Shown here piece by piece: positions 18,311 to 42,890 of a DNA stretch of 64,000 bases (position 1 is the stretch's first letter; the number at the start of each line of letters is the position of its first letter). The translations under genes and the position numbers were made by a program. The notes under the pieces are model-generated. The model was given only the letters and a program-made list of their open reading frames with translations, did no database searches and was not told the DNA's origin. The stretch comes from Suillus spraguei (Eukaryota > Basidiomycota > Agaricomycetes > Boletales > Suillaceae): NCBI GenBank assembly GCA_016800925.1, contig JABCPU010000307.1, forward strand, positions 16,729-80,728, read 5' to 3'.

Positions 18311-19223
18311 CATGAGGTTTTGCTTGAGCAATGCATCAGACAAGGTGATAAGGGGGATGGACACAAATCTAACGTACATCAAAATGAGTCAATGGCTGAG
18401 CGTACGAGAGGGTCTAAAACAAGTCAGTGATATTGGGCAACAGAAAAAAAGTACAACTAGGGTGAATTCAGAACCAACAAAGCCAAGTGGCACACAATGG
18501 AAGGACTGAGCCTGCAGAAACAAAGACGAAAGAAAGAAAAAACGAGAGCAGTGTTGAAAATAAAAGAAAAACAAAGGAGCACAGACTGGACTCTGAGCAC
18601 GACCCCAACTAAAGCCAAGAGGGGAAGTGTAAGCATTGTGCTAACTAGGAATAATGCAGATAGGCATAAGTAAGACTCACACTGTATGCATGCTGTCAGC
18701 GCATCACAGTAGTAACTAGAGCGCAAGGTGCTCACCAGGCGTGCGGTGAGCTGAGAAGCCACGCATATAAATTTGTTTTGAACCAGTCAACCGTAGCTTC
18801 CATGCTGTGATTGAGAACATTGAGGTCCGTCTCATCGGAGAGCTTGAGAAGAACTGCAATAGCCGCCATCAAAAGGAGTGCATCAGTGGGTTTGGACGCC
18901 AGATGCACCTTGCATCACCTTGCCTACTCGATGAACTTGTTCCCAGCAGCTTATCAAGTAGTGATGCCTGCCAGCTCATCAGTCAGCCATCCTAGTGGAG
19001 CTTGCAGGGATCCACTTCAGGGCCTGGCTCCACTGCCAAAGATAAAGGATTTGCCGATGCAAATGAGTTCCTTCTGGCCTTCAAAGCTAGCTTCACTACC
19101 AAGGATTCATTAATAGGAAGGCATATCATCCCTGTGCATGACCATTCCAAATATGAACACTAAATTTGAAAATGCATAATTGGGCCATCATGATGGATGA
19201 GATGAAGATGAACTGCAAAACTC

Positions 19224-19649
19224 TTATGGACCTGAGTTGCTGATTTCATCTCCATTGGCCTCCAAGGCAATACTGCCTTGTATGATTTCTGCAAGAATAT
19301 GATGCGCCTGGGCAGCCGCAACCGTTGGCTGTCAGAGGGTAACCATATGAAACTAATGGAACTCACTTCATCAAAATAAAACCCTAGGTCCAGTTCGCAG
19401 GCATTCTCAAAGTGCTGACCGAGCCCTTCTACAAAAACCTAGAACAGTTCGTCACAGCACGGGCACGACTGCAAGGCAACATTCACCTGTGTCAAGTCTA
19501 GGATGCCCAATTCGCTTTCTGCGTCATCAATGGCAAAGACAAAGTACAGAGTAGCGTAGTTTCTGCAGACAATGCACCGTCTCTCATCTAAGCCATCCTT
19601 GGGGCCAAGAAACGCCTCAAGCTCCAGCGCATGTAGAAAGTTGCAGATA
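19224..19649 (-). pseudogene. APS3: AP-3 adaptor complex sigma subunit, partial
   Basis: Minus-strand exons give CIVCRNYATLYFVFAIDDAE, SELGILDLTQ, then after a short intron VFVEGLGQHFENACELDLGF and, after a second intron, AHHILAEIIQGSIALEANGD, ending at TAA (19224-19226). The ESELGILDL and FENxCELDL motifs separate AP-3 sigma from AP-1/AP-2 sigma. It would act in vesicle sorting to the vacuole. The first ~45 residues (the MIxAxLIFN strand) were not found upstream of 19649, and the reading VAAAQAHH is degraded relative to the usual VHxIL, so I call it partial and probably dead. Confidence 0.75.
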
Positions 19650-19979
19650 TTGGATTATCAGGGGTCGAGATACAAGCTTGACACTTATTGGGAATCTTCA
19701 GGATTGATGGCGCAATATTACCGGGCGTTGGCAGCATGGTTTTAGCGTTGACTGGTGTACATAAGGAGGTATTCTTATGTACGAGTACGCTATGTATTTG
19801 TCAGCGGGTTCACTGTAAAACCTGAGTTGGTATTACTTCACAGAACGTGTTTGAGACTTGCGTGCAACTCAACAGCAGACCAGACGGATATAGGGGAGAA
19901 TATCTTCTGCATCAATGTCTGAGAAGATTGGCAGAGGGGCGTAGAAAATGAAGCAAGATGCTCTGGCAGGCTCAATATT

Positions 19980-20140
19980 GAAGGCATGGTGCGCCGGGAT
20001 CTAGCTCAGATCTAAATGGCACTCTGCGCACTTCAAGCCAGAATGAGCTCTAGGGCGCACCTGACCAAGTTCAGATCTTAAAGGTATGCCGTGCGCTGGG
20101 ATCTAGCTCAGATCTAAACGGCGCTCTGAGCATCAAAGCT
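19980..20140. repeat. Short direct repeat, two units of about 110 bp
   Basis: The block GGGATCTAGCTCAGATCTAA followed by a GC-CTCTG core occurs near 19998 and 20098, with a related CAGATCT block between. It lies upstream of the RPN7 copy. No gene is apparent between about 19650 and 20326. The mirror copy is at 40939-41099. Confidence 0.55.
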
Positions 20141-20326
20141 GGGGTGTTACATGAGGCCACGCATGAGAGCCATTGGAGAGACGTGAGTCATTCTTGTCAC
20201 AGAGGTCGTTCTTGTTGGAGAGTCATTCTCTGCATTTGGACTGAGTGTGATGTGTCTTCATACCGTGGGAATATGAGCCTGTGCGACGCATCGAAGGTGA
20301 GCTCCCTGACGCTGACGCTGACAGTC

Positions 20327-21955
20327 ATGGCAGAAGAAATTATTCCAATATCAAATCTTAGCCTGCCACAGCATCTATTCACTCTTATCTCACCAACACT
20401 CGGGCGACTTCATGACAATGCAAGAAAACAGTTGCTTGAAGGAGTCAAGGCAAACGATAAGTAATGAGGTTGTCTTAATGTTGTTGACTTGGTCTTTGGT
20501 CTACGCAGAAATGTTGCCGTATTATAAGTTAGTAACCTCTGCAGGCGCTCTTACGTCTGATCCTGCATTGCTCGAATTGATGGAGAAAGACAATGAAGAA
20601 GAGCTGAGGAAGCTAGATGAGAGACTGGCAGAGGCGGAGAGGCAAGAAGGAGAGTCTGAAATATCAGATACTTTGAAAGCCGAATTGGTAGCAAGGTGCG
20701 CCATCCCTATACTAAGTCATACGACTGAATAACGCTCAACGTCATTATGTAGGAAGGCGCAGTCGCAGTGCAAAAACTTGCGCTTGAGAACACGCCCAGC
20801 CTTGCCTCAAGGGTAGATATTGCACTCACTCTCATCCGACTGGGATTTTTCTTCGGCAACAATGGCCTCATCACTGAGAACCTTCTCAAGACAGAAAGGT
20901 GCGCTATCGCAGCGCTTTACCGTGATCTTGAATTAACACATCATCCAGATTTATCGAGGAGGGCGGTGGCTGGGATAGGCGTAATCGTCTAAAGGTCTAC
21001 CGTGGGCTCTGCATGGCACCCATCTGCCGCCTTAAGGCTGGCGGCGCACTTCTCCTCGATGCACTATCGACGTTCACTGCCGCTGAACTCACAGCGTACA
21101 ATGGCTTCGTCGCTCTCACTATCATCATAAATGCTCTCACCCTCAAATGAGTAGATCTCAAGACGCAGGTATGTTCGTTCTCCTGGGGTCTTCCACTGCT
21201 GACCTTATCTCCTGAGCTCATCACCGCACTGGAGGTTATCTCCGTTTTGCCTGAAATCCCGATCATTGGAGATCTCTTAAACAATCTTTACGACTGCCAT
21301 TACGCAAAATTCTTCGTCGCCCTCGGTACGTTTCTTCGCACCTACAATCCACTTCCGAAGTTCTTGTCTAGCCTCATTATACTTGTCTGACGTGATTGAT
21401 CATAACTGACATGCTTTGTCCACGCCCACAGCGACCCTTGAGCAGACGTATCTCCTGCCCTCGCGACTCCTCTCGCCTCATACCCGCTACTATTTACGAG
21501 AAATGCGGATTTTGGCATACAGCCAACTTCTGGAGTCCTACCACAGCCTCACTCTTGAGAGTCTTAGCGGTGCATTCGGCGTCAGCGTCGAGTTTGTTGA
21601 CAGGTATTTACTATCTGCACCTGTACCTTGCACCTCTCTGAGCGTATCTTCTAGTGAGCTTTCACAATTTATCGCCAACGGGCGTTTGCATTGCACTATT
21701 GACAAAGTGCGCGGTATTGCAGAGACGACGCGGCCATCACTCAAGAATGTACAGTACGACAAGGTCATAAAGCAAGGTGATGTCTTGTTGAATTCAATAC
21801 AAAGATTGAGTAAAGCATTGTGCTGGTACTTTACGTCTTGTCCCTCCATCTTTTCAAGTGTCGTATTTCGCTTTAAGTTGATACTTGAAGGATGCGCAGA
21901 AGTGGGCATGTCCACCATTTCTATCGTCAACGTGGACCTTCATTTCAGACCGTGA
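20327..21955 (+). pseudogene. RPN7: 26S proteasome lid subunit RPN7 (PSMD6-like) with internal stop
   Basis: From ATG at 20327: MAEEIIPISNLSLPQHLFTL, then spliced exons with [100 protein letters not shown] and the PCI-domain end [20 protein letters not shown]...[13 protein letters not shown]. This covers nearly the whole lid scaffold subunit. A TGA at 21148-21150 falls where the family has Arg in NAxTLKRVDLK, and the short segment around the expected ATYLTRIGDK is not readable, so the copy is probably non-functional. The end is also altered: translation runs on past the usual stop to 21955. Confidence 0.9.
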
Positions 21956-22425
21956 GCATGCCTTAGATCTTTGTATGTATGCCTATCATTTTATGGCGCT
22001 AGTCAGCGAGTAAAAAGCTGGAGAGTCATATTTGAATGCATCAACCTCAGACTTAAGATCAGAGCTCCATCGATATGGAATACATGCCCGAATGGAGGAT
22101 AGTTTTGGTTAATCTGTTCAGATTCTAGGCTGATATGTGCGCACCTCGAGGATATACAATCTCATGTTTCTGAGACGACCCTCGCGAGATGTGAAGGTTA
22201 ATTCGATTTCATAGATAGACTATTACAAGGTTCCGGCGAATGACTAGGCTTATTTGAGATGAACCTCGAGGGTCCATACGCCGTAAAAATGCTGTCAGCC
22301 GGTATCAAACCAACGCCAACAAAACCTTTGCTCCTGGGACCGGAGTATTATCGACGTTTCCCAGCGATGTCTAATTTATCCAATCACACCCCGTGCGACC
22401 TCTAATTAGAGTCTGGCATTCCATT

Positions 22426-23294
22426 TCATCCCTCAATCCAAGCTCGAATGTCCTCAAGTTGGGCGAATACTTCCTTGAGAGATTCGCCCTCTGAAGCACG
22501 ATCGCGACGTTCAGCTGGGCTGTCCCAACCTGCAAATGAGGTCGAGCCGCGAAGGCTACTCGGAGGGCAGATTGCAGCGGTCGTATCTAGAAGGACTGGT
22601 CGTAGAGGTCGTGGAGTCGCGTGACGATCCAGCTTTTGAGGAAGAGGAGCATTACCGCCATTCGCCCTCCCTCTTTCTTCGGCTACCGGGTGAAGGATTG
22701 ATGGTTGACTTCTGACGTCAACGGTCTTGTGATCGATTTTTAATGATGAACTTTGCTGCGGCGCACCACGCAATCGTGTCATCGGTGATTTATGAGCACC
22801 TCGATCGAGCTCTGGACTAAGTTTTTGGATAGGCAGGGCAAGGGCAAGGACGTCGTAGGATATCTGAGCGGTGACTTGGGGAGCTTGTACCGAAATCTCA
22901 ACCGTGGCTTCGCTTCCCTGCTTTGCCTTTCGAGCAAGAACGGCAGCCGTCGCTTGAGCCAGTGTAGGAAAGACCTTTTCTTATTTTAGCAGGCCCATCA
23001 TACTGGCCGCCCATATCTAGTTTATTGTGTTGATGTGTTGCACCAGCAGGTTGAGGGATGGCTGGAACATGCTTCGCAATCGGTGTTTTCTCCCTTGTCT
23101 TGCGCTTGTATATGGCGGGCGGCCGAGCACCGCAGCTGACATACGCCTTCCGCACGATTTTCCGATAGTGTGAATCGTCTCCCCCGAGGGAGGTCATGGC
23201 ATCCGCACGAGCACACTTCGGAGAGCAAAAGCAGAAATTGTGATCTGCCACCGTTGGACCAGGGGTCCCAAAGCATAGTTGAGGCCCTGCATTC
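22426..23294 (-). CDS. Cysteine-motif protein of unknown function, 5'-truncated
   Basis: Minus-strand reading gives a probable metal-binding stretch, NFCFCSPKCARADAMTSLGG, then HYRKIVRKAYVSCGA (basic), a Lys-rich linker, VFPTLAQATAAVLARKAKQG and a C-terminal region ending EDIRAWIEG at 22426. The Cys-x-Cys-x3-Cys pattern looks like half of a small zinc ribbon found in mushroom hypothetical proteins, but I cannot name it. There is a frame change of one G near 22980 (AAAAGG), either a short unrecognised intron or a mutation. The upstream half of the ribbon is missing because the sequence joins the REV1 5' piece at about 23295-23320. Confidence 0.5.
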
Positions 23295-23319
23295 CTGCGG
23301 TAACAATGCAGATACGCAC

Positions 23320-23697
23320 ATATATTGAAAGACCGCTAAAGATTTTTTTTCTGGCACCCACGTCTTGGCTTGCATCAAGGGTTGCATTTTGTATCTGCAG
23401 TTTGGCGCGCTTGCGATGCATGTACTCTCCGAAATGTCCAAAGCGAGATGCGCCGTAAATCTCAGGATTACCTTCAGTGTCACCAAGTCCATGGGTCAAG
23501 GTCCCGTGTGATGTCGCCCCAACTTGCTGCTCATCGCTTTCATCACGGAGACGCTTGCGATTCAGGGACTCTTGGGGAGCTGTGATTTGATCTCCGGGTA
23601 GCACCACGTTCCTGAGAGCCTCGAGGAACTCTGGATCACCGGGACCAAAAAGGTCGGAGGAATCAGTAGACGCAGACGATTGAAATGGTTTCACCAT
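23320..23697 (-). pseudogene. REV1: REV1 N-terminal exon fragment
   Basis: Reads from Met at 23697: DLFGPGDPEFLEALRNVVLP, then YGASRFGHFGEYMHRKRAKL, QIQNATLD and IFSGLSIY, where the BRCT domain would begin. This is the characteristic basidiomycete REV1 N-terminus as recalled. A GTGCGTATCTG donor follows, but the next sequence after ...ACCGCAG is the cysteine-motif gene in an incompatible frame, so the break lies within the first BRCT intron. Catalytic and C-terminal REV1 sequence lies at 10449-13047; the BRCT segment is absent from the window. Confidence 0.8.
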
Positions 23698-23917
23698 CAA
23701 CCTCCGTAAGGCAATACAATGATTTAGGAAGAGGCAAGCATGTGGTCTCCGTGTCCTGTACGACAACCCGGTAACCAGTGAAGCAAGCGTTGTTTGTCTT
23801 TATTTGTTGGAGGTCCAAACAAATTGCAAATAAACCACTCCACTCCACATTGCCATGTGGGTTAGCAGGCACGTTAACGTAGAATAAGTAGGCTCTTCAG
23901 ACTATCGCTATGATACA

Positions 23918-25381
23918 TTATAAACACTGTACAACAATAGACACATCATCTAACCAAGGTGAGTCCATGTTCAAAGTCAGAACACGAGATACGCTCGTCG
24001 GATCATTACCAAGCGCCTGCCAAAGCAGTCGGAGGGCCAGACTCTTTTCATCTAGCTCTCTTGAGTTACTGCGTGCGGCTGCACGAGCCCACTGATCAAC
24101 AATCGCACGTTGATTTGTGCCACATATGTCTGTGAACCCATCTGAACAGAGTATAAGATATTTGCGAGGAGCTCGGGGGGATGGATCAAGGGGATAATGC
24201 GTGACTTCCGGAGTGGACGAAACATATGGAGGCGTATGGTTCCTCATCAAGAACTCTTCCCAAGGAGATGTGTCGTGCTGACCAGGATATAAATTATAGA
24301 GAATACGTCGGGTGAACTCGGGTGGTTGTTTGAAGGGGGTGTCTCCCAGACCTGTTCAATCATCGAGTAGGTCAGCGGATAGTAAAGTATGAAAATATGA
24401 ATGTAACATGCATCGAAAGGGTGCAATAGCTCCAAGCACACGACTATCCACAATACACTCCGGCTCACCAGGGTGCTCATTCATGACGCGCTGGACCTCA
24501 AGCGGATTTTCCCCGTTATGAAATTGCGTCAAAACTTCCACGTTCCACGATTTTTGATCAGTCTCTGAGACCATCACTTGAATTCAAAAGTTAGCCGTCA
24601 CGATGGACAATATCGTCACACTTTACGTACGTCCTTGGCAGTCACCCAGGTTGGCAAGCCATAGATTTTGGTGATCAGGGTCAACAAGAGCTACGAGTGC
24701 AGTAGTACCATACAAGCACAGCCTTGCCTTCGTGTAATTTTGGCCTCCGGAAAGTTGGTCATCGAGAACTCCCTGGATCTGCAAGTCCGACAAGCGAGAT
24801 AAAGATGACAAACCGTCCGGGAAAAGTTCCAGGACGTCATTGGCGATGGCGTCATCAAAAGCGCGAATGGCCATCGAAAACATGTCCGCAATTAAAGGCG
24901 GCGGTACAACACGGTCACCGTGTTTCCGAGTGATCAACTCCAAGTGTTCCCGCACAATGATAGGCATGTGATGGGCCACATGCTCAACGGTATGGCTACC
25001 CAGGTGACCTGTGGATAATTCCTGGTAATGACACAATGACCAAGCACATTCTCAAAACTTGTGCCTACCATCAAAAACTGCAGACAGGGTCCAAACGCGT
25101 CCCTGAATATGTATCTGCTGAATTGCATAACGGTCTTGCGAGGGAGTCTCAGCGCAAGGTTGGAAGTTGAGGGCATCTGCACGCCACCGTCCCGTCGGGT
25201 CAAATTTGACGCTGTGGAGGTTGGAGGCTGCCGCCAGGTGATCCCAGGCAGCGTCATGGTTCAAATTTCGAAAGGGACGTGGCCAATCATCTGTAGGACT
25301 ACACAGATTGCCAGGGATATCGCCGAAGGAGGCAAATGATGTAGGACCGGTATAGCAGGAGCATTCGGGGCTTCCACCCAT
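23918..25381 (-). CDS. PP2C-type (PPM family) serine/threonine phosphatase
   Basis: Apparently intact metal-dependent phosphatase. Spliced exons give SQDRYAIQ, then VFDGHLGSHTVEHVAHHMP with the FDGHxG metal motif restored across an intron (GTAGGCACAAG...ATCCACAG), ALVDPDHQNLWLANLGDCQ (GDC in place of the common GDS), LGAIAPFRC-LGD across an unusual intron that works as GC-AG (donor GAT|GCATGT), KYLILCSDGFTDICG (CSDG motif) and SPWLDDVSIVVQCL at the end. These are the four PP2C metal motifs in order; the pyruvate-dehydrogenase-phosphatase-like subgroup is possible. The start at 25381 (MGGSPECSC) keeps the frame into exon one; an upstream ATG at 25479 lies in another frame. About 220 bp separate it from the REV1 piece. 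Confidence 0.85.
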
Positions 25382-25499
25382 GAGGCGCCAGTCACAAAAG
25401 AAGTAAGCGCAGGAGAAATGTGGGGAAGCGGAATCCCCACTTTGCTGTCGGACCGCTTATAAGTCATTGCTGCTGTCATGTGCAGTACTGGGCGTTAAA

Positions 25500-26000
25500 G
25501 TTCAACATTAATTAATGACATATATCAATAAATTTGGTGTCTTTGTATGAAAGCCGTGCGGCGTGCGTATACGCGTGGCGTCAAACGTCACCGTGCCAGT
25601 ACCACATTGAAAGTTTAGGACGGAGATGGGCACCTGGCAATTCAACGTGATGGGATATAGTTAACTCCCGCAATCCTGTGTTTGGTTGCGGAGTTTCGCG
25701 CGGTCATTCGATGCAACACAGGCACAATGGGAAACCTCCGTTGAAGGACGAACGCAAAGGGCAACAAACTTATGTAAAGCTTAAAACCAGTGTCCGCACA
25801 GATAGCTAGACTTGAAAAAGTGATACATTACACTACATACGACTTGCGTTATTTAAGAGCTACTAGTAATCAAGATCGTAGTCGTAAGCTACAATATAGC
25901 GACGAAAAAAATGTATACAATGTGCGTGGTTGTAAAGATCGTGGTAGGTAAGATCCAGTCTGATACTCCAGGTCCATGCAGAATTATGAGAAGACATTGC
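25500..26000. other. Intergenic, no gene seen
   Basis: Region between the phosphatase 5' end and the cysteine-rich gene 3' end. It presumably holds the phosphatase promoter and the 3' UTR of the other gene; nothing specific is recognisable. Confidence 0.5.
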
Positions 26001-28322
26001 TTATTTACGGAAAGGGTTGCGAGATCCGCCCGTATTTGTAGGTGTGATCCAATGCGATGGGTCAGGTTCCGGGGACTGCCTTACGGACGCAGCGTACGAC
26101 TCGGCGGCGGTTAGCGGTTTAGAAGGCAGTAGCTGACGTTTCAACACGTTTGATTTCTTGGGTACCGAAGATCCAAGTGTCGTTGTCGAAAATCGAGAAC
26201 TCAAAGGGTCCGATTTGACAGGCTGCCGAGGTTCGGGTCTGGAACGAACATTCCCTGTCGTTTGGGAATACAGGGAACCTGATAGCCTATTAACATCGGA
26301 GTAATCATATGATTCGCGATGGTTGTAGAGATGAAGCGAAGGAGATCGGCTCGATCCCGAGCGAGAGTGCTCGTGTGCGCCCATAAGCGTCTCCATTTCC
26401 TTATGGTGCCGTGCCTCCTCCGCAGCGCGCAGTTTCCATAAAGCAATTTCCTCCGTCTCAGGCCGCGTGCTACGATTGTGCCCAAAAAGCCTCTCTCCAA
26501 AGCGGGCAAGTCGCCATCTCCAGTTTTGCTTGTGGAGGGCCTTAGCAGACGCAAATGCTGCTGTCTCCTTTGCTCGCTGCTTGCGAGCTCGGCGCCGCCA
26601 GCAGTATAAAAAGGCCACAAAGATGAAAGCACATCCAAGCGCCATGAGTAAAATCTCCCACCACTGCAATCGTTGGGTTGTGGTTGTAATAGGAGTCGAT
26701 AGCCCTGAGGGAAGCGAGCCTGAACTGGTACCAGAAGGTAAGACTTGTACAAGTTCTGAAAGGCACGCCCCAAGACTTGGGATAACACTTGTACCGCTGG
26801 TGCAGTTAGCTGACGTGCAAGCACCCCCACGCAAAACTTGACTAGAACTTGAGCAAGCGAGGCAGTTATTCGGACCGGCGCCTGAACAGCTAGCACAGCT
26901 GGAATCGCAAGACTGGCATGTTGAGGACGTTGTGTCGAAATACTGCTTCTGACTGCAAGTAGCGAGACAGCGACCACTTGTAAGGACAGGGAGTGCTTTG
27001 TTGCAACTTGTGCACTGGTTAAAGGATGCACCTGAACATGTTGCACAGTCTGGATGGCAGGAAACGCAGGACCCGGAAGAACTTAACGTGTTGAAGGGAC
27101 AAGAACTGACGCACTGCCCGTTTGAAGCTAGCAAGTTGTTCGCGCATGTCAAGCAGGTGGTAGCGCTTCCCGCACAGCTACTACAGGATGAAGAACAAGC
27201 TGAATACATGACGACATCAGTCTAATTTAGTAATCAATCGAATTGAGACAGTCCGTACCTGGACACGTCAAATTATCTTGAGGAGATAGGAAAGTACCAG
27301 ATGGACAACCTGTCACACACTGCCCTTGTGACAAGACAAAACCAGGAAGACAGCCAGTACACTGAGCTTGATTGACGGTAGATGCCACATTGAAATTGGA
27401 TATCTGGCAGGTCGTGCACTTCGGTCCACAAGCTGAGAATTACATATTGAGTACACGTCAATGCACAGTGGGATACACTTACTGTCGCACTCATGCTTGT
27501 CATTGTTGGCAATCATATTGGAGCCTGAGCAAACACCCCCAGAACTGGTCGTCACGCATGACCCATTAAACTTGTACGTGCCGGATCCGCAAATGACACA
27601 ATCGTTCGAATTTGGCCCGGTACAAGTCGTGCAAAGCGGTGAACAAATCGCGCAACTAGACCCAGCACCGTAACTTCCGGTAGGACAAGTCGTGCTATTT
27701 GACGTAGTTTGCGGAATGGCATCGCACATTGTGCGGTCGTTCCCGTCCTGAGTAAAGCCGGACGCGCAAGTAATGCAGTCCCCGGTGCCATCAGCACACT
27801 GTTGACAACCCAACTGACAAACTGAAATCAAAGATGAGATTGGTGAGACAGAAAAAGAATGTATCGTAACTGACTTTCGCAGTTCCCGTTTGTAGCTAAA
27901 AAGAAACCGGCCGCACATGCAGCACATTGAGTTCCGTTTGACGCCGAGGTCCAACCACTAAGACAGGTACACTGTCCGTTAGCGCCACATTCGCCATTGA
28001 TACAATTGCAACTCGATGGCAGGTTTGACACTACTGGCACCAAGCAACGTCCCGTGCCCGAGATTCCATCATCGCATGAAGTACACCCTGACGGACAGGC
28101 CTGACACTCCGGTCCGAAGAAACCAGACGAGCACGCCTCGCAAGATGAACCGGTGAATCCGCTTGGACATTGACACGTCCCAGAAGAGGAGCAAATGCCA
28201 TCTCCGGAACAAACCGGCGAACAGGATGACGATTGCAGGTTGAGCAACGACAGGGACCCTGAGGCGCTCGCAGGGAGCTGGCTGACATCAGGAATAGAGT
28301 TCCACAAAATGACACGCCTGTT
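26001..28322 (-). CDS. Cysteine-rich EGF/furin-like single-pass membrane protein, N-terminus lost
   Basis: Minus-strand exons run RRVILWNSIPDVSQLPASAS, an EGF-like repeat (CSGDGICSSSGTCQCPSGFT), several furin/TNFR-like CxxC repeats (CSSCAGSATTCLTC; CATCSGASFNQCTSC; CASCSGAGPNNCLAC), then in the last 402-codon exon (26001-27209) a membrane segment at about residues 183-204 (WWEILLMALGCAFIFVAFLY) followed by a basic stop-transfer RRRARKQR and a ~190-residue Ser-rich cytoplasmic tail. This is a growth-factor-receptor-like surface architecture common in basidiomycetes; ligand and role are unknown. Introns lie near 27830-27880, 27430-27480 and 27210-27250. The signal peptide and N-terminal region are replaced at 28323 by amidase exon sequence, so secretion is doubtful. 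Confidence 0.8.
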
Positions 28323-29091
28323 CCTGACAGGTAATAGCCAAAGCGAAGCTTGGAAGGGAGCTCGACAGCGTGGTACGGCATGGGAACATTCTGGTGAGAC
28401 GAGTCCTTTTTGGCCAAAGATAGTTTTGCAGAACAATTCACAGTCCTGAACAGACCTAGAAAATAGTCGAGAATGAGCCAAGTGATGCAGGTAGCGACTA
28501 ACCGCGCTAATGACCCATGAGAAGATCGAATTGCTTCGAATCCAGGCCGGACGGCTGTAAGACAAAGCCAGTTATCGTCTTAGTTGGAAGAATCGAGAAC
28601 ATCACCTTCCTTGTGTACCAATAGAACTAACACGTTCAGCCGTTGGCTTCAAAGAGTACACACCGCAATACGATGCTGGGATGCGCAAGCTTCCTCCGAT
28701 ATCAGAACCGATGCCCAAGGCGGATACGTCCATGGCAAGTAAAGCTCCCTCTAGTGCCAGACGTTGTTATTTACTAAGATATTCACAAGCATATGACGAA
28801 CCTCCACCAGAGCTGCCTCCGCATGTATACTTGTTGTTCCATGGGTTTGTCGTGCGACCCCAGAGAGGATTAGAGCATTCGAACGCGAGCATTGTCTGCG
28901 GTACATTGGTCTTCACGAAGATGATGGCACCAGCAGCTCTGAGTTGAGCAACGACCTACAAGTAATGATAGAGAGAATGGGTGAATGTGATAATAAGGAC
29001 ATGCGCAAGCGTCTTTTTTGCCTGGGTTGTTGGCCCATGCTGTGAACCCAATGGTCGCGTCGTATCCAAACGTTGAGTTTGGTGTATACAT
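28323..29091 (-). pseudogene. Amidase-signature enzyme, 5'/catalytic part
   Basis: Minus-strand exons give STFGYDATIGFTAWANNPGK, then AAGAIIFVKTNVPQTMLAFE, CSNPLWGRTTNPWNNKYTCG-GSSGG (catalytic glycine/serine loop) and, across a short intron, [20 protein letters not shown] with [19 protein letters not shown] (the DIGGS nucleophile motif), then VQDCELFCKTIFGQK. A homopolymer of five T (28407-28411, A on the coding strand) against four in the 8.7-kb copy shifts the frame, killing this copy. Homology stops at 28323 next to an exon end (CTGTCAG|G), where the cysteine-rich gene begins. The upstream N-terminus, including the catalytic Lys region, is not readable; 28323-28633 overlaps the 3' amidase piece at 8696-9010. 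Confidence 0.87.
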
Positions 29092-29267
29092 AAAATTGCA
29101 CTGCAGTTATGAGCACAGTCAGTTACTGGAAGCATGACGCGAGTTTTTCGCATTTGAGAGAGAAATGCAAAGGGTTGAATGGCATTGCTTTGATTGATGG
29201 TACGATAGGTGTTTGCTGCATGGCGGAGCTGGCGTGGATCCGGAGAAGGGATCATACCCAAGAATGA

Positions 29268-29455
29268 CAGCAGGGACGGTTTCCTTTTGAGAGCAGGGAC
29301 AGTTTCCTTTTGCGAGCAGGGACGGTTTCCTTTCTGGAGCAGGGACGGCAGGGACGTGATGTAAAGAATTTTCATTTTTTTAAACAAATGGCGGATGGGA
29401 AATAAGAAGCAGGGACGATTGCCTTTAAAGGCAGGAGCAGGGACGGGGACGGCTA
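29268..29455. repeat. GAGCAGGGACGGTTTCC minisatellite at the inner palindrome border
   Basis: A 26-29 bp unit with core AGCAGGGAC(G/A)GTTTCC is repeated about four times between 29268 and 29360, with degenerate copies to 29455. The left-arm boundary (29292/29293) falls inside this array; the right arm contains only the first part of one unit (31787-31811). Confidence 0.85.
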
Positions 29456-29652
29456 GACCCCTGCAGCCGGAGTCCCCTCCCCATAGGATTGCGCGATGCT
29501 ATAAATTGACTGGGAAGCCGTAGAAAGTCAGAGGGGTAAGAGTGGTAGAACTCGAATGATGGACTTGGAAGATATCGAGGTGCGTCCATATTCAATCTCT
29601 TTCTGTGCAAATTCTGACATATAAAAGTACAGGCATGCTGTTTGTCCCGCAG

Positions 29653-29933
29653 CTGTGATATGTATCTAGATGAGCTTCGTGATGAGATTAGCAAGGCTCG
29701 CGGGAAACACCCGTCATTGTCCACCATCTGGCGAACGCTTCATTGCACGGGATATTCAAGGAAGAAGGTTAGTGTCTTGATTCTCGTTGACAATGATGTT
29801 TGATTGATGTGTGCAATAGATCACTCGAGAAGCAAGAGAGCGGAACCTTGATAAACGTGCTGAGTACATGTATCAGATTGGCCTCAAGTATAGACCCGAC
29901 CAACTCATTTTTGTCGACAAGAGCTCCGCCGAC
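29653..29933 (+). pseudogene. Tc1/mariner-like (DDE_3) transposase fragment
   Basis: Two exons joined across a GTTAGTGTC...GCAATAG intron (29768-29819) read YLDELRDEISKARGKHPSLS, TIWRTLHCTGYSRKKITREA and YRPDQLIFVDKSSAD, the helix-turn-helix end and first catalytic strand of IS630/mariner-group transposases in fungi. The acidic residue sits in FVDK, where family members often read FVDE. Nothing follows after SSAD, so it is a truncated relic inside the palindrome spacer. Confidence 0.68.
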
Positions 29934-30168: not shown

Positions 30169-30280
30169 TGTAGCAGACCGGGAAAAGTGAGATTAGATGT
30201 GTGTGAATTTGGTTTGTATACTAGTACTAGACACGAGACAAGTGTCCACTTCGCCAGATCGTTCCATTCGTTCTACAGTC

Positions 30281-31168: not shown

Positions 31169-31987
31169 TTCCATCACGTCAATTCATTTGTCAGTATCCA
31201 TCTGCTTGCCTTGTATCACTCACCAGCCTATTGTGACTTACCCTTTCATTCATAGGTTTCAAGATGCGCTTCGGTCATGTGCATGAACCCCAGTGAAAAC
31301 TGAAAACTGCTAAAACAGATGTAAATATACGCAAAGCTACTTTGCACCTTACATACCTGGTCTTATCTACGGTACATAATCGACGCGTTTCGCAAACACA
31401 ACATTCAGGCTATAGACTGCTTCCTCGTTCCACGCGTTGACTTTGTGTTTAGCAAACGAGAATTACAAGCAGCGCCCGGTCCATACTATGGCTACTACTC
31501 GCACACGTCGTAATGCTCTGTACTCGTCACTAGCGCATGTAGTCCTTGTTGCACTATTGCTGCACCCACCATAATACATACTTTTATGTGGCAGAGTGGG
31601 ATTTTTTCTATGGGTTACCTCTCACTGCCAGCACTCAAAAACCTCAAAAAGTATTCCTATCAAGGTGTAGATGAGTGGGTACTGTTCCATTGAGTGTTCT
31701 TTTGCTGTCATACTGAACTTTGAAAATAAGATCTTTGGTTTCGCGTTATCTCCTTACGCCATATTGGAATTGGTTCATCAAGCTCTTCTCAAAAGGAAAC
31801 CGTCCCTGCTGTCATTCTTGGGTATGATCCCTTCTCCGGATCCACGCCAGCTCCGCCATGCAGCAAACACCTATCGTACCATCAATCAAAGCAATGCCAT
31901 TCAACCCTTTGCATTTCTCTCTCAAATGCGAAAAACTCGCGTCATGCTTCCAGTAACTGACTGTGCTCATAACTGCAGTGCAATTTT

Positions 31988-32756
31988 ATGTATACACCAA
32001 ACTCAACGTTTGGATACGACGCGACCATTGGGTTCACAGCATGGGCCAACAACCCAGGCAAAAAAGACGCTTGCGCATGTCCTTATTATCACATTCACCC
32101 ATTCTCTCTATCATTACTTGTAGGTCGTTGCTCAACTCAGAGCTGCTGGTGCCATCATCTTCGTGAAGACCAATGTACCGCAGACAATGCTCGCGTTCGA
32201 ATGCTCTAATCCTCTCTGGGGTCGCACGACAAACCCATGGAACAACAAGTATACATGCGGAGGCAGCTCTGGTGGAGGTTCGTCATATGCTTGTGAATAT
32301 CTTAGTAAATAACAACGTCTGGCACTAGAGGGAGCTTTACTTGCCATGGACGTATCCGCCTTGGGCATCGGTTCTGATATCGGAGGAAGCTTGCGCATCC
32401 CAGCATCGTATTGCGGTGTGTACTCTTTGAAGCCAACGGCTGAACGTGTTAGTTCTATTGGTACACAAGGAAGGTGATGTTCTCGATTCTTCCAACTAAG
32501 ACGATAACTGGCTTTGTCTTACAGCCGTCCGGCCTGGATTCGAAGCAATTCGATCTTCTCATGGGTCATTAGCGCGGTTAGTCGCTACCTGCATCACTTG
32601 GCTCATTCTCGACTATTTTCTAGGTCTGTTCAGGACTGTGAATTGTTCTGCAAAACTATCTTTGGCCAAAAAGGACTCGTCTCACCAGAATGTTCCCATG
32701 CCGTACCACGCTGTCGAGCTCCCTTCCAAGCTTCGCTTTGGCTATTACCTGTCAGG
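31988..32756 (+). pseudogene. Amidase 5' part, right-arm copy
   Basis: Mirror of 28323-29091 with the same GGSSGG and DIGGS motifs, the same five-A frameshift (32668-32672) and the same fusion point to the cysteine-rich gene. Confidence 0.87.
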
Positions 32757-35078
32757 AACAGGCGTGTCATTTTGTGGAACTCTATTCCTGATGTCAGCCA
32801 GCTCCCTGCGAGCGCCTCAGGGTCCCTGTCGTTGCTCAACCTGCAATCGTCATCCTGTTCGCCGGTTTGTTCCGGAGATGGCATTTGCTCCTCTTCTGGG
32901 ACGTGTCAATGTCCAAGCGGATTCACCGGTTCATCTTGCGAGGCGTGCTCGTCTGGTTTCTTCGGACCGGAGTGTCAGGCCTGTCCGTCAGGGTGTACTT
33001 CATGCGATGATGGAATCTCGGGCACGGGACGTTGCTTGGTGCCAGTAGTGTCAAACCTGCCATCGAGTTGCAATTGTATCAATGGCGAATGTGGCGCTAA
33101 CGGACAGTGTACCTGTCTTAGTGGTTGGACCTCGGCGTCAAACGGAACTCAATGTGCTGCATGTGCGGCCGGTTTCTTTTTAGCTACAAACGGGAACTGC
33201 GAAAGTCAGTTACGATACATTCTTTTTCTGTCTCACCAATCTCATCTTTGATTTCAGTTTGTCAGTTGGGTTGTCAACAGTGTGCTGATGGCACCGGGGA
33301 CTGCATTACTTGCGCGTCCGGCTTTACTCAGGACGGGAACGACCGCACAATGTGCGATGCCATTCCGCAAACTACGTCAAATAGCACGACTTGTCCTACC
33401 GGAAGTTACGGTGCTGGGTCTAGTTGCGCGATTTGTTCACCGCTTTGCACGACTTGTACCGGGCCAAATTCGAACGATTGTGTCATTTGCGGATCCGGCA
33501 CGTACAAGTTTAATGGGTCATGCGTGACGACCAGTTCTGGGGGTGTTTGCTCAGGCTCCAATATGATTGCCAACAATGACAAGCATGAGTGCGACAGTAA
33601 GTGTATCCCACTGTGCATTGACGTGTACTCAATATGTAATTCTCAGCTTGTGGACCGAAGTGCACGACCTGCCAGATATCCAATTTCAATGTGGCATCTA
33701 CCGTCAATCAAGCTCAGTGTACTGGCTGTCTTCCTGGTTTTGTCTTGTCACAAGGGCAGTGTGTGACAGGTTGTCCATCTGGTACTTTCCTATCTCCTCA
33801 AGATAATTTGACGTGTCCAGGTACGGACTGTCTCAATTCGATTGATTACTAAATTAGACTGATGTCGTCATGTATTCAGCTTGTTCTTCATCCTGTAGTA
33901 GCTGTGCGGGAAGCGCTACCACCTGCTTGACATGCGCGAACAACTTGCTAGCTTCAAACGGGCAGTGCGTCAGTTCTTGTCCCTTCAACACGTTAAGTTC
34001 TTCCGGGTCCTGCGTTTCCTGCCATCCAGACTGTGCAACATGTTCAGGTGCATCCTTTAACCAGTGCACAAGTTGCAACAAAGCACTCCCTGTCCTTACA
34101 AGTGGTCGCTGTCTCGCTACTTGCAGTCAGAAGCAGTATTTCGACACAACGTCCTCAACATGCCAGTCTTGCGATTCCAGCTGTGCTAGCTGTTCAGGCG
34201 CCGGTCCGAATAACTGCCTCGCTTGCTCAAGTTCTAGTCAAGTTTTGCGTGGGGGTGCTTGCACGTCAGCTAACTGCACCAGCGGTACAAGTGTTATCCC
34301 AAGTCTTGGGGCGTGCCTTTCAGAACTTGTACAAGTCTTACCTTCTGGTACCAGTTCAGGCTCGCTTCCCTCAGGGCTATCGACTCCTATTACAACCACA
34401 ACCCAACGATTGCAGTGGTGGGAGATTTTACTCATGGCGCTTGGATGTGCTTTCATCTTTGTGGCCTTTTTATACTGCTGGCGGCGCCGAGCTCGCAAGC
34501 AGCGAGCAAAGGAGACAGCAGCATTTGCGTCTGCTAAGGCCCTCCACAAGCAAAACTGGAGATGGCGACTTGCCCGCTTTGGAGAGAGGCTTTTTGGGCA
34601 CAATCGTAGCACGCGGCCTGAGACGGAGGAAATTGCTTTATGGAAACTGCGCGCTGCGGAGGAGGCACGGCACCATAAGGAAATGGAGACGCTTATGGGC
34701 GCACACGAGCACTCTCGCTCGGGATCGAGCCGATCTCCTTCGCTTCATCTCTACAACCATCGCGAATCATATGATTACTCCGATGTTAATAGGCTATCAG
34801 GTTCCCTGTATTCCCAAACGACAGGGAATGTTCGTTCCAGACCCGAACCTCGGCAGCCTGTCAAATCGGACCCTTTGAGTTCTCGATTTTCGACAACGAC
34901 ACTTGGATCTTCGGTACCCAAGAAATCAAACGTGTTGAAACGTCAGCTACTGCCTTCTAAACCGCTAACCGCCGCCGAGTCGTACGCTGCGTCCGTAAGG
35001 CAGTCCCCGGAACCTGACCCATCGCATTGGATCACACCTACAAATACGGGCGGATCTCGCAACCCTTTCCGTAAATAA
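32757..35078 (+). CDS. Cysteine-rich EGF/furin-like membrane protein, right-arm copy
   Basis: Mirror of 26001-28322. The main 3' exon is 33870-35078 and carries the CxxC repeats, membrane segment and Ser-rich tail. Like its twin it lacks its own N-terminus, so both would depend on the upstream amidase-derived sequence for a start; a 245-codon frame (32514-33251) already fuses the two. Confidence 0.8.
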
Positions 35079-35697
35079 GCAATGTCTTCTCATAATTCTG
35101 CATGGACCTGGAGTATCAGACTGGATCTTACCTACCACGATCTTTACAACCACGCACATTGTATACATTTTTTTCGTCGCTATATTGTAGCTTACGACTA
35201 CGATCTTGATTACTAGTAGCTCTTAAATAACGCAAGTCGTATGTAGTGTAATGTATCACTTTTTCAAGTCTAGCTATCTGTGCGGACACTGGTTTTAAGC
35301 TTTACATAAGTTTGTTGCCCTTTGCGTTCGTCCTTCAACGGAGGTTTCCCATTGTGCCTGTGTTGCATCGAATGACCGCGCGAAACTCCGCAACCAAACA
35401 CAGGATTGCGGGAGTTAACTATATCCCATCACGTTGAATTGCCAGGTGCCCATCTCCGTCCTAAACTTTCAATGTGGTACTGGCACGGTGACGTTTGACG
35501 CCACGCGTATACGCACGCCGCACGGCTTTCATACAAAGACACCAAATTTATTGATATATGTCATTAATTAATGTTGAACTTTAACGCCCAGTACTGCACA
35601 TGACAGCAGCAATGACTTATAAGCGGTCCGACAGCAAAGTGGGGATTCCGCTTCCCCACATTTCTCCTGCGCTTACTTCTTTTGTGACTGGCGCCTC

Positions 35698-37161
35698 ATG
35701 GGTGGAAGCCCCGAATGCTCCTGCTATACCGGTCCTACATCATTTGCCTCCTTCGGCGATATCCCTGGCAATCTGTGTAGTCCTACAGATGATTGGCCAC
35801 GTCCCTTTCGAAATTTGAACCATGACGCTGCCTGGGATCACCTGGCGGCAGCCTCCAACCTCCACAGCGTCAAATTTGACCCGACGGGACGGTGGCGTGC
35901 AGATGCCCTCAACTTCCAACCTTGCGCTGAGACTCCCTCGCAAGACCGTTATGCAATTCAGCAGATACATATTCAGGGACGCGTTTGGACCCTGTCTGCA
36001 GTTTTTGATGGTAGGCACAAGTTTTGAGAATGTGCTTGGTCATTGTGTCATTACCAGGAATTATCCACAGGTCACCTGGGTAGCCATACCGTTGAGCATG
36101 TGGCCCATCACATGCCTATCATTGTGCGGGAACACTTGGAGTTGATCACTCGGAAACACGGTGACCGTGTTGTACCGCCGCCTTTAATTGCGGACATGTT
36201 TTCGATGGCCATTCGCGCTTTTGATGACGCCATCGCCAATGACGTCCTGGAACTTTTCCCGGACGGTTTGTCATCTTTATCTCGCTTGTCGGACTTGCAG
36301 ATCCAGGGAGTTCTCGATGACCAACTTTCCGGAGGCCAAAATTACACGAAGGCAAGGCTGTGCTTGTATGGTACTACTGCACTCGTAGCTCTTGTTGACC
36401 CTGATCACCAAAATCTATGGCTTGCCAACCTGGGTGACTGCCAAGGACGTACGTAAAGTGTGACGATATTGTCCATCGTGACGGCTAACTTTTGAATTCA
36501 AGTGATGGTCTCAGAGACTGATCAAAAATCGTGGAACGTGGAAGTTTTGACGCAATTTCATAACGGGGAAAATCCGCTTGAGGTCCAGCGCGTCATGAAT
36601 GAGCACCCTGGTGAGCCGGAGTGTATTGTGGATAGTCGTGTGCTTGGAGCTATTGCACCCTTTCGATGCATGTTACATTCATATTTTCATACTTTACTAT
36701 CCGCTGACCTACTCGATGATTGAACAGGTCTGGGAGACACCCCCTTCAAACAACCACCCGAGTTCACCCGACGTATTCTCTATAATTTATATCCTGGTCA
36801 GCACGACACATCTCCTTGGGAAGAGTTCTTGATGAGGAACCATACGCCTCCATATGTTTCGTCCACTCCGGAAGTCACGCATTATCCCCTTGATCCATCC
36901 CCCCGAGCTCCTCGCAAATATCTTATACTCTGTTCAGATGGGTTCACAGACATATGTGGCACAAATCAACGTGCGATTGTTGATCAGTGGGCTCGTGCAG
37001 CCGCACGCAGTAACTCAAGAGAGCTAGATGAAAAGAGTCTGGCCCTCCGACTGCTTTGGCAGGCGCTTGGTAATGATCCGACGAGCGTATCTCGTGTTCT
37101 GACTTTGAACATGGACTCACCTTGGTTAGATGATGTGTCTATTGTTGTACAGTGTTTATAA
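35698..37161 (+). CDS. PP2C-type phosphatase, right-arm copy
   Basis: Mirror of 23918-25381 with identical FDGH-G, GDC, CSDG and DDVS motifs and the same putative GC-AG intron (near 36669-36727). If the palindrome is real, the organism carries two identical copies of this intact gene in divergent surroundings. Confidence 0.85.
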
Positions 37162-37381
37162 TGTATCATAGCGATAGTCTGAAGAGCCTACTTATTCTAC
37201 GTTAACGTGCCTGCTAACCCACATGGCAATGTGGAGTGGAGTGGTTTATTTGCAATTTGTTTGGACCTCCAACAAATAAAGACAAACAACGCTTGCTTCA
37301 CTGGTTACCGGGTTGTCGTACAGGACACGGAGACCACATGCTTGCCTCTTCCTAAATCATTGTATTGCCTTACGGAGGTTG

Positions 37382-37759
37382 ATGGTGAAACCATTTCAAT
37401 CGTCTGCGTCTACTGATTCCTCCGACCTTTTTGGTCCCGGTGATCCAGAGTTCCTCGAGGCTCTCAGGAACGTGGTGCTACCCGGAGATCAAATCACAGC
37501 TCCCCAAGAGTCCCTGAATCGCAAGCGTCTCCGTGATGAAAGCGATGAGCAGCAAGTTGGGGCGACATCACACGGGACCTTGACCCATGGACTTGGTGAC
37601 ACTGAAGGTAATCCTGAGATTTACGGCGCATCTCGCTTTGGACATTTCGGAGAGTACATGCATCGCAAGCGCGCCAAACTGCAGATACAAAATGCAACCC
37701 TTGATGCAAGCCAAGACGTGGGTGCCAGAAAAAAAATCTTTAGCGGTCTTTCAATATAT
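37382..37759 (+). pseudogene. REV1: REV1 N-terminal fragment, right-arm copy
   Basis: Mirror of 23320-23697, ending at the same intron donor (GTGCGTATCTG at 37760). Confidence 0.8.
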
Positions 37760-37784
37760 GTGCGTATCTGCATTGTTACCGCAG

Positions 37785-38653
37785 GAATGCAGGGCCTCAA
37801 CTATGCTTTGGGACCCCTGGTCCAACGGTGGCAGATCACAATTTCTGCTTTTGCTCTCCGAAGTGTGCTCGTGCGGATGCCATGACCTCCCTCGGGGGAG
37901 ACGATTCACACTATCGGAAAATCGTGCGGAAGGCGTATGTCAGCTGCGGTGCTCGGCCGCCCGCCATATACAAGCGCAAGACAAGGGAGAAAACACCGAT
38001 TGCGAAGCATGTTCCAGCCATCCCTCAACCTGCTGGTGCAACACATCAACACAATAAACTAGATATGGGCGGCCAGTATGATGGGCCTGCTAAAATAAGA
38101 AAAGGTCTTTCCTACACTGGCTCAAGCGACGGCTGCCGTTCTTGCTCGAAAGGCAAAGCAGGGAAGCGAAGCCACGGTTGAGATTTCGGTACAAGCTCCC
38201 CAAGTCACCGCTCAGATATCCTACGACGTCCTTGCCCTTGCCCTGCCTATCCAAAAACTTAGTCCAGAGCTCGATCGAGGTGCTCATAAATCACCGATGA
38301 CACGATTGCGTGGTGCGCCGCAGCAAAGTTCATCATTAAAAATCGATCACAAGACCGTTGACGTCAGAAGTCAACCATCAATCCTTCACCCGGTAGCCGA
38401 AGAAAGAGGGAGGGCGAATGGCGGTAATGCTCCTCTTCCTCAAAAGCTGGATCGTCACGCGACTCCACGACCTCTACGACCAGTCCTTCTAGATACGACC
38501 GCTGCAATCTGCCCTCCGAGTAGCCTTCGCGGCTCGACCTCATTTGCAGGTTGGGACAGCCCAGCTGAACGTCGCGATCGTGCTTCAGAGGGCGAATCTC
38601 TCAAGGAAGTATTCGCCCAACTTGAGGACATTCGAGCTTGGATTGAGGGATGA
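37785..38653 (+). CDS. Cysteine-motif protein, right-arm copy
   Basis: Mirror of 22426-23294, with the same CSPKC motif and the same one-base frame change near 38100. Confidence 0.5.
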
Positions 38654-39123
38654 AATGGAATGCCAGACTCTAATTAGAGGTCGCACGGGGTGTGATTGGA
38701 TAAATTAGACATCGCTGGGAAACGTCGATAATACTCCGGTCCCAGGAGCAAAGGTTTTGTTGGCGTTGGTTTGATACCGGCTGACAGCATTTTTACGGCG
38801 TATGGACCCTCGAGGTTCATCTCAAATAAGCCTAGTCATTCGCCGGAACCTTGTAATAGTCTATCTATGAAATCGAATTAACCTTCACATCTCGCGAGGG
38901 TCGTCTCAGAAACATGAGATTGTATATCCTCGAGGTGCGCACATATCAGCCTAGAATCTGAACAGATTAACCAAAACTATCCTCCATTCGGGCATGTATT
39001 CCATATCGATGGAGCTCTGATCTTAAGTCTGAGGTTGATGCATTCAAATATGACTCTCCAGCTTTTTACTCGCTGACTAGCGCCATAAAATGATAGGCAT
39101 ACATACAAAGATCTAAGGCATGC

Positions 39124-40752
39124 TCACGGTCTGAAATGAAGGTCCACGTTGACGATAGAAATGGTGGACATGCCCACTTCTGCGCATCCTTCAAGTATCA
39201 ACTTAAAGCGAAATACGACACTTGAAAAGATGGAGGGACAAGACGTAAAGTACCAGCACAATGCTTTACTCAATCTTTGTATTGAATTCAACAAGACATC
39301 ACCTTGCTTTATGACCTTGTCGTACTGTACATTCTTGAGTGATGGCCGCGTCGTCTCTGCAATACCGCGCACTTTGTCAATAGTGCAATGCAAACGCCCG
39401 TTGGCGATAAATTGTGAAAGCTCACTAGAAGATACGCTCAGAGAGGTGCAAGGTACAGGTGCAGATAGTAAATACCTGTCAACAAACTCGACGCTGACGC
39501 CGAATGCACCGCTAAGACTCTCAAGAGTGAGGCTGTGGTAGGACTCCAGAAGTTGGCTGTATGCCAAAATCCGCATTTCTCGTAAATAGTAGCGGGTATG
39601 AGGCGAGAGGAGTCGCGAGGGCAGGAGATACGTCTGCTCAAGGGTCGCTGTGGGCGTGGACAAAGCATGTCAGTTATGATCAATCACGTCAGACAAGTAT
39701 AATGAGGCTAGACAAGAACTTCGGAAGTGGATTGTAGGTGCGAAGAAACGTACCGAGGGCGACGAAGAATTTTGCGTAATGGCAGTCGTAAAGATTGTTT
39801 AAGAGATCTCCAATGATCGGGATTTCAGGCAAAACGGAGATAACCTCCAGTGCGGTGATGAGCTCAGGAGATAAGGTCAGCAGTGGAAGACCCCAGGAGA
39901 ACGAACATACCTGCGTCTTGAGATCTACTCATTTGAGGGTGAGAGCATTTATGATGATAGTGAGAGCGACGAAGCCATTGTACGCTGTGAGTTCAGCGGC
40001 AGTGAACGTCGATAGTGCATCGAGGAGAAGTGCGCCGCCAGCCTTAAGGCGGCAGATGGGTGCCATGCAGAGCCCACGGTAGACCTTTAGACGATTACGC
40101 CTATCCCAGCCACCGCCCTCCTCGATAAATCTGGATGATGTGTTAATTCAAGATCACGGTAAAGCGCTGCGATAGCGCACCTTTCTGTCTTGAGAAGGTT
40201 CTCAGTGATGAGGCCATTGTTGCCGAAGAAAAATCCCAGTCGGATGAGAGTGAGTGCAATATCTACCCTTGAGGCAAGGCTGGGCGTGTTCTCAAGCGCA
40301 AGTTTTTGCACTGCGACTGCGCCTTCCTACATAATGACGTTGAGCGTTATTCAGTCGTATGACTTAGTATAGGGATGGCGCACCTTGCTACCAATTCGGC
40401 TTTCAAAGTATCTGATATTTCAGACTCTCCTTCTTGCCTCTCCGCCTCTGCCAGTCTCTCATCTAGCTTCCTCAGCTCTTCTTCATTGTCTTTCTCCATC
40501 AATTCGAGCAATGCAGGATCAGACGTAAGAGCGCCTGCAGAGGTTACTAACTTATAATACGGCAACATTTCTGCGTAGACCAAAGACCAAGTCAACAACA
40601 TTAAGACAACCTCATTACTTATCGTTTGCCTTGACTCCTTCAAGCAACTGTTTTCTTGCATTGTCATGAAGTCGCCCGAGTGTTGGTGAGATAAGAGTGA
40701 ATAGATGCTGTGGCAGGCTAAGATTTGATATTGGAATAATTTCTTCTGCCAT
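39124..40752 (-). pseudogene. RPN7: RPN7, right-arm copy
   Basis: Mirror of 20327-21955. The internal TGA is present at the mirrored position (39929-39931), so both copies share the same lesion. Confidence 0.9.
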
Positions 40753-40938
40753 GACTGTCAGCGTCAGCGTCAGGGAGCTCACCTTCGATGCGTCGCACAG
40801 GCTCATATTCCCACGGTATGAAGACACATCACACTCAGTCCAAATGCAGAGAATGACTCTCCAACAAGAACGACCTCTGTGACAAGAATGACTCACGTCT
40901 CTCCAATGGCTCTCATGCGTGGCCTCATGTAACACCCC

Positions 40939-41099
40939 AGCTTTGATGCTCAGAGCGCCGTTTAGATCTGAGCTAGATCCCAGCGCACGGCATACCTTTA
41001 AGATCTGAACTTGGTCAGGTGCGCCCTAGAGCTCATTCTGGCTTGAAGTGCGCAGAGTGCCATTTAGATCTGAGCTAGATCCCGGCGCACCATGCCTTC
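40939..41099. repeat. Short direct repeat, right-arm copy
   Basis: Mirror of 19980-20140. Confidence 0.55.
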
Positions 41100-41429
41100 A
41101 ATATTGAGCCTGCCAGAGCATCTTGCTTCATTTTCTACGCCCCTCTGCCAATCTTCTCAGACATTGATGCAGAAGATATTCTCCCCTATATCCGTCTGGT
41201 CTGCTGTTGAGTTGCACGCAAGTCTCAAACACGTTCTGTGAAGTAATACCAACTCAGGTTTTACAGTGAACCCGCTGACAAATACATAGCGTACTCGTAC
41301 ATAAGAATACCTCCTTATGTACACCAGTCAACGCTAAAACCATGCTGCCAACGCCCGGTAATATTGCGCCATCAATCCTGAAGATTCCCAATAAGTGTCA
41401 AGCTTGTATCTCGACCCCTGATAATCCAA

Positions 41430-41855
41430 TATCTGCAACTTTCTACATGCGCTGGAGCTTGAGGCGTTTCTTGGCCCCAAGGATGGCTTAGATGAGAGAC
41501 GGTGCATTGTCTGCAGAAACTACGCTACTCTGTACTTTGTCTTTGCCATTGATGACGCAGAAAGCGAATTGGGCATCCTAGACTTGACACAGGTGAATGT
41601 TGCCTTGCAGTCGTGCCCGTGCTGTGACGAACTGTTCTAGGTTTTTGTAGAAGGGCTCGGTCAGCACTTTGAGAATGCCTGCGAACTGGACCTAGGGTTT
41701 TATTTTGATGAAGTGAGTTCCATTAGTTTCATATGGTTACCCTCTGACAGCCAACGGTTGCGGCTGCCCAGGCGCATCATATTCTTGCAGAAATCATACA
41801 AGGCAGTATTGCCTTGGAGGCCAATGGAGATGAAATCAGCAACTCAGGTCCATAA
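41430..41855 (+). pseudogene. APS3: AP-3 sigma subunit, right-arm copy
   Basis: Mirror of 19224-19649. Stop TAA at 41853-41855. Sequence from here to the arm end (42447) holds only short frames with no recognisable content. Confidence 0.75.
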
Positions 41856-42890
41856 GAGTTTTGCAGTTCATCTTCATCTCATCCATCATGATGGCCCAAT
41901 TATGCATTTTCAAATTTAGTGTTCATATTTGGAATGGTCATGCACAGGGATGATATGCCTTCCTATTAATGAATCCTTGGTAGTGAAGCTAGCTTTGAAG
42001 GCCAGAAGGAACTCATTTGCATCGGCAAATCCTTTATCTTTGGCAGTGGAGCCAGGCCCTGAAGTGGATCCCTGCAAGCTCCACTAGGATGGCTGACTGA
42101 TGAGCTGGCAGGCATCACTACTTGATAAGCTGCTGGGAACAAGTTCATCGAGTAGGCAAGGTGATGCAAGGTGCATCTGGCGTCCAAACCCACTGATGCA
42201 CTCCTTTTGATGGCGGCTATTGCAGTTCTTCTCAAGCTCTCCGATGAGACGGACCTCAATGTTCTCAATCACAGCATGGAAGCTACGGTTGACTGGTTCA
42301 AAACAAATTTATATGCGTGGCTTCTCAGCTCACCGCACGCCTGGTGAGCACCTTGCGCTCTAGTTACTACTGTGATGCGCTGACAGCATGCATACAGTGT
42401 GAGTCTTACTTATGCCTATCTGCATTATTCCTAGTTAGCACAATGCTGACGATCCAAACTTGTTACATTTCCTCCAGATTCTTAGCTTCCGCCTACATGC
42501 AGGTAGTTCATGGCGTCCTTACTATCGCCACTTGCAACGATGGCTGCATGGAATTCTGTCAAGATCTATACACTATATGGCTATATATTATATATATCTC
42601 AACACATTTTCATATTGTTTTGGATGTCTCATTTGATAGAATACATCACTGGAATTCCATTGCACTAACTTTTAAGGAAATTGGTGGTCAGAAACATGAG
42701 TTATGATCATTTTACTGTTAACTGAGCGATTTAACTCAATCACTATATTAGGACAGTATAACTCCATCATAGGACATCAAATATCTAACAGATGCACTGG
42801 TATATATACTATAGTGATGGGGATATATGATTTTGCACTCATTTCTAATATTGTCATATTATATCTGCTGGTCCAGGGGGAGAGGTTGAG

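Follow-up and report, generated by a model that had tools for sequence, protein, structure and literature searches.

The window analysed here, 64,000 nucleotides of Suillus spraguei (Boletales) DNA corresponding to positions 16729-80728 of the 80,728-bp contig C489, contains a palindrome in which two 10,661-bp arms without a single difference flank a 2,494-bp single-copy spacer. This palindrome can tentatively be read as an inverted duplication of very recent date that arose by fold-back, a reading to which we assign a probability of roughly 0.48. Because two inherited and two new joins are arranged around a short single-copy spacer, the structure is best described as a candidate fold-back duplication that was later joined to other DNA.

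The left arm occupies positions 18632-29292 (+ strand) and the right arm positions 31787-42447 (- strand), the latter being the exact reverse complement of the former as determined both by base pairing and by a repeat search. Each base i of the left arm (18632 to 29292) pairs with base 61079-i with 0 mismatches in 10,661 positions, which bears out in full the original prediction of 10,661-bp arms, a 2,494-bp spacer and mirrored pairs summing to 61079. The repeat search returned slightly longer intervals (18629-29292 and 31787-42450), the three extra bases reaching past a mismatch. Self-pairing drops immediately at the arm ends to the level expected by chance, with values of 26% over positions 17632-18631 and 25% in the spacer (29293-31786), and a simple formula places the longest chance inverted repeat expected in 64 kb at about 15-16 bp. 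The contig extends beyond the palindrome for about 35 kb on one side and 21.5 kb on the other, and Rfam and tRNA scans of the whole window returned no matches.

Comparison with the rest of the 86.2-Mb assembly revealed that two of the four palindrome boundaries are shared with other contigs and two are not. The left arm-spacer junction (29292/29293) is spanned by five other contigs. Three of these (C998, C427 and C504) cross the junction and continue to position 31787 at about 97-98% identity (best 40 of 185 candidates), and two more (C853, 94%; C991, 92%) cross it over shorter stretches. The right outer junction (42447/42448) is spanned by C423 and C435 at 96% identity, and both of these joins are considered inherited. 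The remaining two are considered new. At the left outer junction (18631/18632), the end of a repeat with 132-bp units meets the arm, and of the 116 matches at this point only that of C489 runs across; the others stop or start at most 8 bases away, and other copies of the left flank continue into different sequence. The spacer-right-arm junction (31786/31787) is also spanned by C489 alone among the matches listed (1 of 41, best 40 of 52 candidates), and copies of the spacer elsewhere continue into different sequence beyond 31787.

At each new junction the overlap, judged by eye, amounts to about 1 base. The hexamer CATTGT beside the left outer junction is common to flank and arm, and GCTCT beside the inner junction at 31787 is shared but offset; given their length, such overlaps are unremarkable, and one of 1 bp is expected by chance. 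Repeats are abundant around these points. The left flank ends in a dispersed repeat (16881-18639) matched on many contigs, such as C532 and C649 at 96%, and the spacer is composed of dispersed repeats at about 29485-30594 and 30716-31787, with at least 78 matches on many contigs (best 40 of 185 candidates). C385 and C532 share pieces with both palindrome flanks, but because some of these pieces are common repeats, they are not taken as a sign of shared order. A second arm-spacer-arm unit, as expected of a mobile element with long terminal inverted repeats, was not found among the matches listed for the arm query (43 matches, best 32 of 379 candidates) and for the spacer and junction queries.

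The coding content of the arms was assessed by scanning 17 open reading frames of the left arm against Pfam, with a match defined as E<=0.01. Matches were obtained in 5 of the 17 frames, which together represent three things: a PSMD6/RPN7-like copy, a PP2C-like sequence and an EGF/growth-factor-receptor-like gene. The expectation of at least seven gene bodies per arm was not borne out; the other 12 frames gave no match at this threshold, which does not make them non-genes. The PSMD6/RPN7-like copy (20327-21954, + strand; mirror copy 39125-40752, - strand) presents PCI and RPN7 C-terminal helix matches above the Pfam cut-off and an RPN7 match below it. With exons placed by eye, it holds an in-frame stop (TGA), and its translation with an X at the stop matched PSMD6 chains in PDB with a best E of 5e-97. 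The arm copy is hence probably a pseudogene. A further PSMD6-like copy on C136 (123072-124692) is 94% identical to it, and LTR-like sequence directly follows that copy. The PP2C-like exons (23921-25456, - strand; mirror copy 35623-37158, + strand) include one with an E-value of 0.007, below Pfam's own cut-off.

The EGF/growth-factor-receptor-like gene (26001-28571, - strand; mirror copy 32508-35078, + strand) contains a 402-aa frame with an EGF match above the Pfam cut-off and a GF_recep_IV match below it. It has 318 homologous proteins and many copies in the S. spraguei genome, where a 1,209-bp stretch of the gene yielded 30 matches: the two arms and 28 further ones, several of them fragments. 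The whole arm used as a query gave at least 43 matches in the genome (best 32 of 379 candidates). The outermost 1.7 kb of the arm has a full-length match only on C423 and C435 among the matches listed, and parts of it match C1035, C529, C551 and C488 (89-90%), C385 (90%) and C1158 (82%). Overall, most of the arm sequence occurs in many copies, part of it is decayed, and much of it is dispersed repeat.

The scenario that we infer for the palindrome, comprising a break, a fold-back and a second break in that order, would have started from the ancestral order right flank, arm, spacer and further DNA. The DNA would have broken on the far side of the spacer, and the resulting end would have folded onto the arm at its inner end; synthesis would then have copied the arm as its mirror image, with the remaining loop becoming the single-copy spacer. 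A second break would have cut the resulting mirror chromosome where one arm ends on its outer side. The end thus formed would have been fused to a different repeat-rich locus, or copied into it, and this locus would constitute the present left flank. Two hallmarks of fold-back duplication were observed, namely a single-copy spacer that is continuous with one arm across a junction spanned by other contigs, and a new inner junction at 31787. A third, inverted homology of 2-8 bp at the inner junction, was not found there, the approximately 1-bp overlap and the offset GCTCT being the extent of the similarity. As regards a terminal deletion or the attachment of the end to other DNA, the observation is that the left flank meets the arm at a join spanned by C489 alone among the matches listed.

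The human fold-back duplications described by Hermetz et al. 2014 (PMC3907307) provide the closest frame of reference in the sections of that study available to us. Among 21 sequenced junctions, 13 present overlaps of 2-8 bp, three involve homology between repeats of about 300 bp and five contain insertions; homology of 2-8 bp is hence a common feature of these junctions in that part of the study, and not a strictly defining one, since 5 of the 21 have insertions instead. The inner junction of the S. spraguei palindrome presents none of these three features, which likewise counts against a fold-back origin. Spacers in the human set range from 766 to 70,466 bp (median 3,428), a range that includes the 2,494-bp spacer reported here, and the same sections describe fold-back duplications joined to translocations. 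The two systems share mirror copies, a single-copy spacer of a few kilobases, one new inner junction and an end that can be joined to other DNA. They differ in that the human arms span megabases in the rows examined, whereas those of S. spraguei span 10.7 kb with an overlap of about 1 bp, and in that, in the human cases, the natural outer flank stays with the copy that has the natural spacer (PMC3907307). In the S. spraguei palindrome, the arm with the natural spacer bears the new flank, which counts against a fold-back origin and would fit it only under the added assumption that the remaining half of the mirror chromosome was not lost. The observation of the whole structure in a single contig, C489, also counts against it.

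Of the three readings offered alongside the original prediction, a recent inverted duplication is favoured by the boundaries and the arm identity, gene conversion gained no specific support and is not needed, and an assembly artefact, although less likely, constitutes the main rival. The artefact reading holds that one stretch was used twice, either owing to chimeric reads or because a repeat belonging to two loci or two nuclei was mis-threaded, and that the structure, or at least its full-length identity, is not real. Perfect identity would result if both arms had been assembled from the same reads, the genome is repeat-rich and divided into 1,256 contigs, and both new junctions are confined to C489 among the matches listed. 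The assembly also contains an inverted pair of doubtful quality on C618 (43601-47700), involving the same EGF-like gene at 88% identity with many small gaps. In a BLAST alignment of 2,081 columns the pair has 49 mismatches and 169 gap openings, and the split under MAFFT is 331 mismatches and 57 gap runs; it may be poorly corrected sequence. No inverted partner for the last 800 bp of the contig was found on C618 among the best 40 of 1,100 candidates, and C618 was set aside as proof of fold-back artefacts in this assembly. S. spraguei is a dikaryotic fungus whose genome sequences combine two nuclei. In the available part of an ITS survey, two ITS types in an S. spraguei assembly are treated under contamination (PMC10387565), and palindromic reads are put at about 0.5% of an unamplified PacBio control in the accessible text of another study (PMC6218980).

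Long-read fold-back artefacts, as portrayed in the consulted portions of two reports (PMC12870357, PMC6218980), resemble the palindrome in generating perfect mirror copies in assembled sequence. Such artefacts usually fold with a minimal spacer or none and carry identical sequence on either side, whereas here a 2.5-kb spacer is present and the outer flanks are only 26% alike, as expected by chance. Hairpin reads fold near the middle of the read, within 200 bp by the definition of one tool (PMC12870357), which also argues against this origin. The spacer alone is nonetheless no proof against an artefact, because an artefact read with about 2 kb between its segments appears in the part of that report consulted (PMC12870357). 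The inner junctions lie close enough together for one long read to cover both, so that the inner part of the mirror can be claimed with more safety; least secure is the identity of the arms along all 10.7 kb, because reads from both arms could have been pooled.

A second, improbable alternative to the fold-back duplication invokes replication template switching, whether microhomology-mediated or origin-dependent, as the source of the inverted copy, with no need for a broken and folded end. Such a process is compatible with overlaps of about 1 bp at the two new junctions and with the passage into other DNA where the arm ends on its outer side, but the region bears no mark of an origin or of a triplication. 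The product would be nearly the same as that of a fold-back, and sequence barely separates the two.

The divergence between the arm and its closest relatives bears on the age of the duplication. Alignment of the arm with C423 gave 92 differences at 2,444 sites in the outer part, 88 of them transitions and 76 of CpG type, and 51 at 7,184 sites in the inner part, 11 of them of CpG type. The predominance of CpG-type transitions in the outer arm (76 of 92) suggests decay through methylated CpG. Relative to C435, 98 of 2,438 outer and 42 of 6,504 inner sites differ, and the divergence between C423 and C435 themselves is about 0.6% for the inner part, against 2% for the outer part and its flank together. 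The left and right arms present no difference, with a 95% upper bound of about 0.03%. At face value, the duplication would be much younger than the splits among these copies, and a recent origin of the arms would in this respect resemble identity imposed during assembly.

That the arms match throughout their 10,661 bp, in a genome with 0.6-4% divergence between related copies, could also reflect an older palindrome in which gene conversion, as in human Y-chromosome palindromes, has kept the arms from diverging, a reading that we regard as very improbable. Palindromes of the Y-chromosome type have gene-bearing, near-identical arms around a spacer and undergo gene conversion. The S. spraguei palindrome, as sampled in one strain, resembles them in its near-identical, gene-bearing arms and its spacer. 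Against this reading, both C489-only boundaries are abrupt, and a recent origin needs fewer steps. A palindrome of the same EGF-like gene on C385 (105374-112595), spacerless, with arms of about 3.5 kb and unlike flanks, has in addition not been kept identical: its arms present 34 mismatches in 3,445 aligned positions, and BLAST gives 98.4% identity. This divergence would make it older than the palindrome on C489, and it shows that such structures occur in the genome as assembled. Homologous recombination between inverted repeats was set aside because the new junctions overlap by about 1 bp.

Other inverted structures were detected in the genome and in the window. C504 contains a 1.17-kb inverted pair with 97.9% identity. 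In the window, positions 49078-61340 form a second, diverged mirror with pieces 95-99% alike; the idea that it is a further palindrome of the same kind was set aside, given that it looks like two head-to-head Ty3 LTR retrotransposon copies, the left one of which presents gag, protease, reverse transcriptase and RNase H matches. Separately, an insertion of about 2.4 kb is present on C423 (about 39482-41908) and C435 (about 81809-84238) and missing from the palindrome arms (site 21854-21860). On C435 it is accompanied by a 7-bp target duplication. Inside the insertion, two perfect inverted copies, each at least 706 bp long on C423 or 790 bp on C435, are separated by about 420 bp. Past the inner end of the arm, C423 encodes what we take, by eye, to resemble a Crinkler-type ubiquitin-like N-terminus. 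Positions 10449-13058 of the window hold a frame with a REV1 C-terminal domain; the surrounding stretch is found at 97-98% on more than 10 other contigs and adjoins inner-arm copies on several of them.

A literature search found no palindrome of this kind in fungi or basidiomycetes among the papers listed. The proposed duplication is of a known type and unusually clean. Precedents among fungi come from Zymoseptoria tritici, which belongs to a phylum other than that of S. spraguei. Its chromosome 14 palindrome and chromosome 17 fusions are alike in involving a large fungal palindromic sequence linked to repeats and breakage-fusion, but remnants of two copies of one element flank that palindrome, according to the available excerpt (PMC3681731), and none were found here. 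Gene-bearing palindromes have been reported in a springtail, in an article whose accessible passages also mention the Y-chromosome type (PMC5490193). In a survey of perfect inverted repeats, arms reaching thousands of bases were almost confined to bacteria; the survey admitted spacers of at most 8 bp and hence has no bearing on a palindrome with a 2,494-bp spacer (PMC13155455).

Should the palindrome prove to be an artefact, it would warn of inflated gene copy numbers in this repeat-rich assembly. A more speculative and rather improbable extension of the fold-back reading is that the multi-copy EGF-like receptor module spreads repeatedly via palindromes, as represented by the perfect 10.7-kb structure, those on C385 and C504 and perhaps that on C618, with fold-back as a standing route of gene-family growth. 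If real, the structure would constitute a freshly formed gene-bearing palindrome with four readable boundaries, making the steps of inverted duplication testable in a mushroom.
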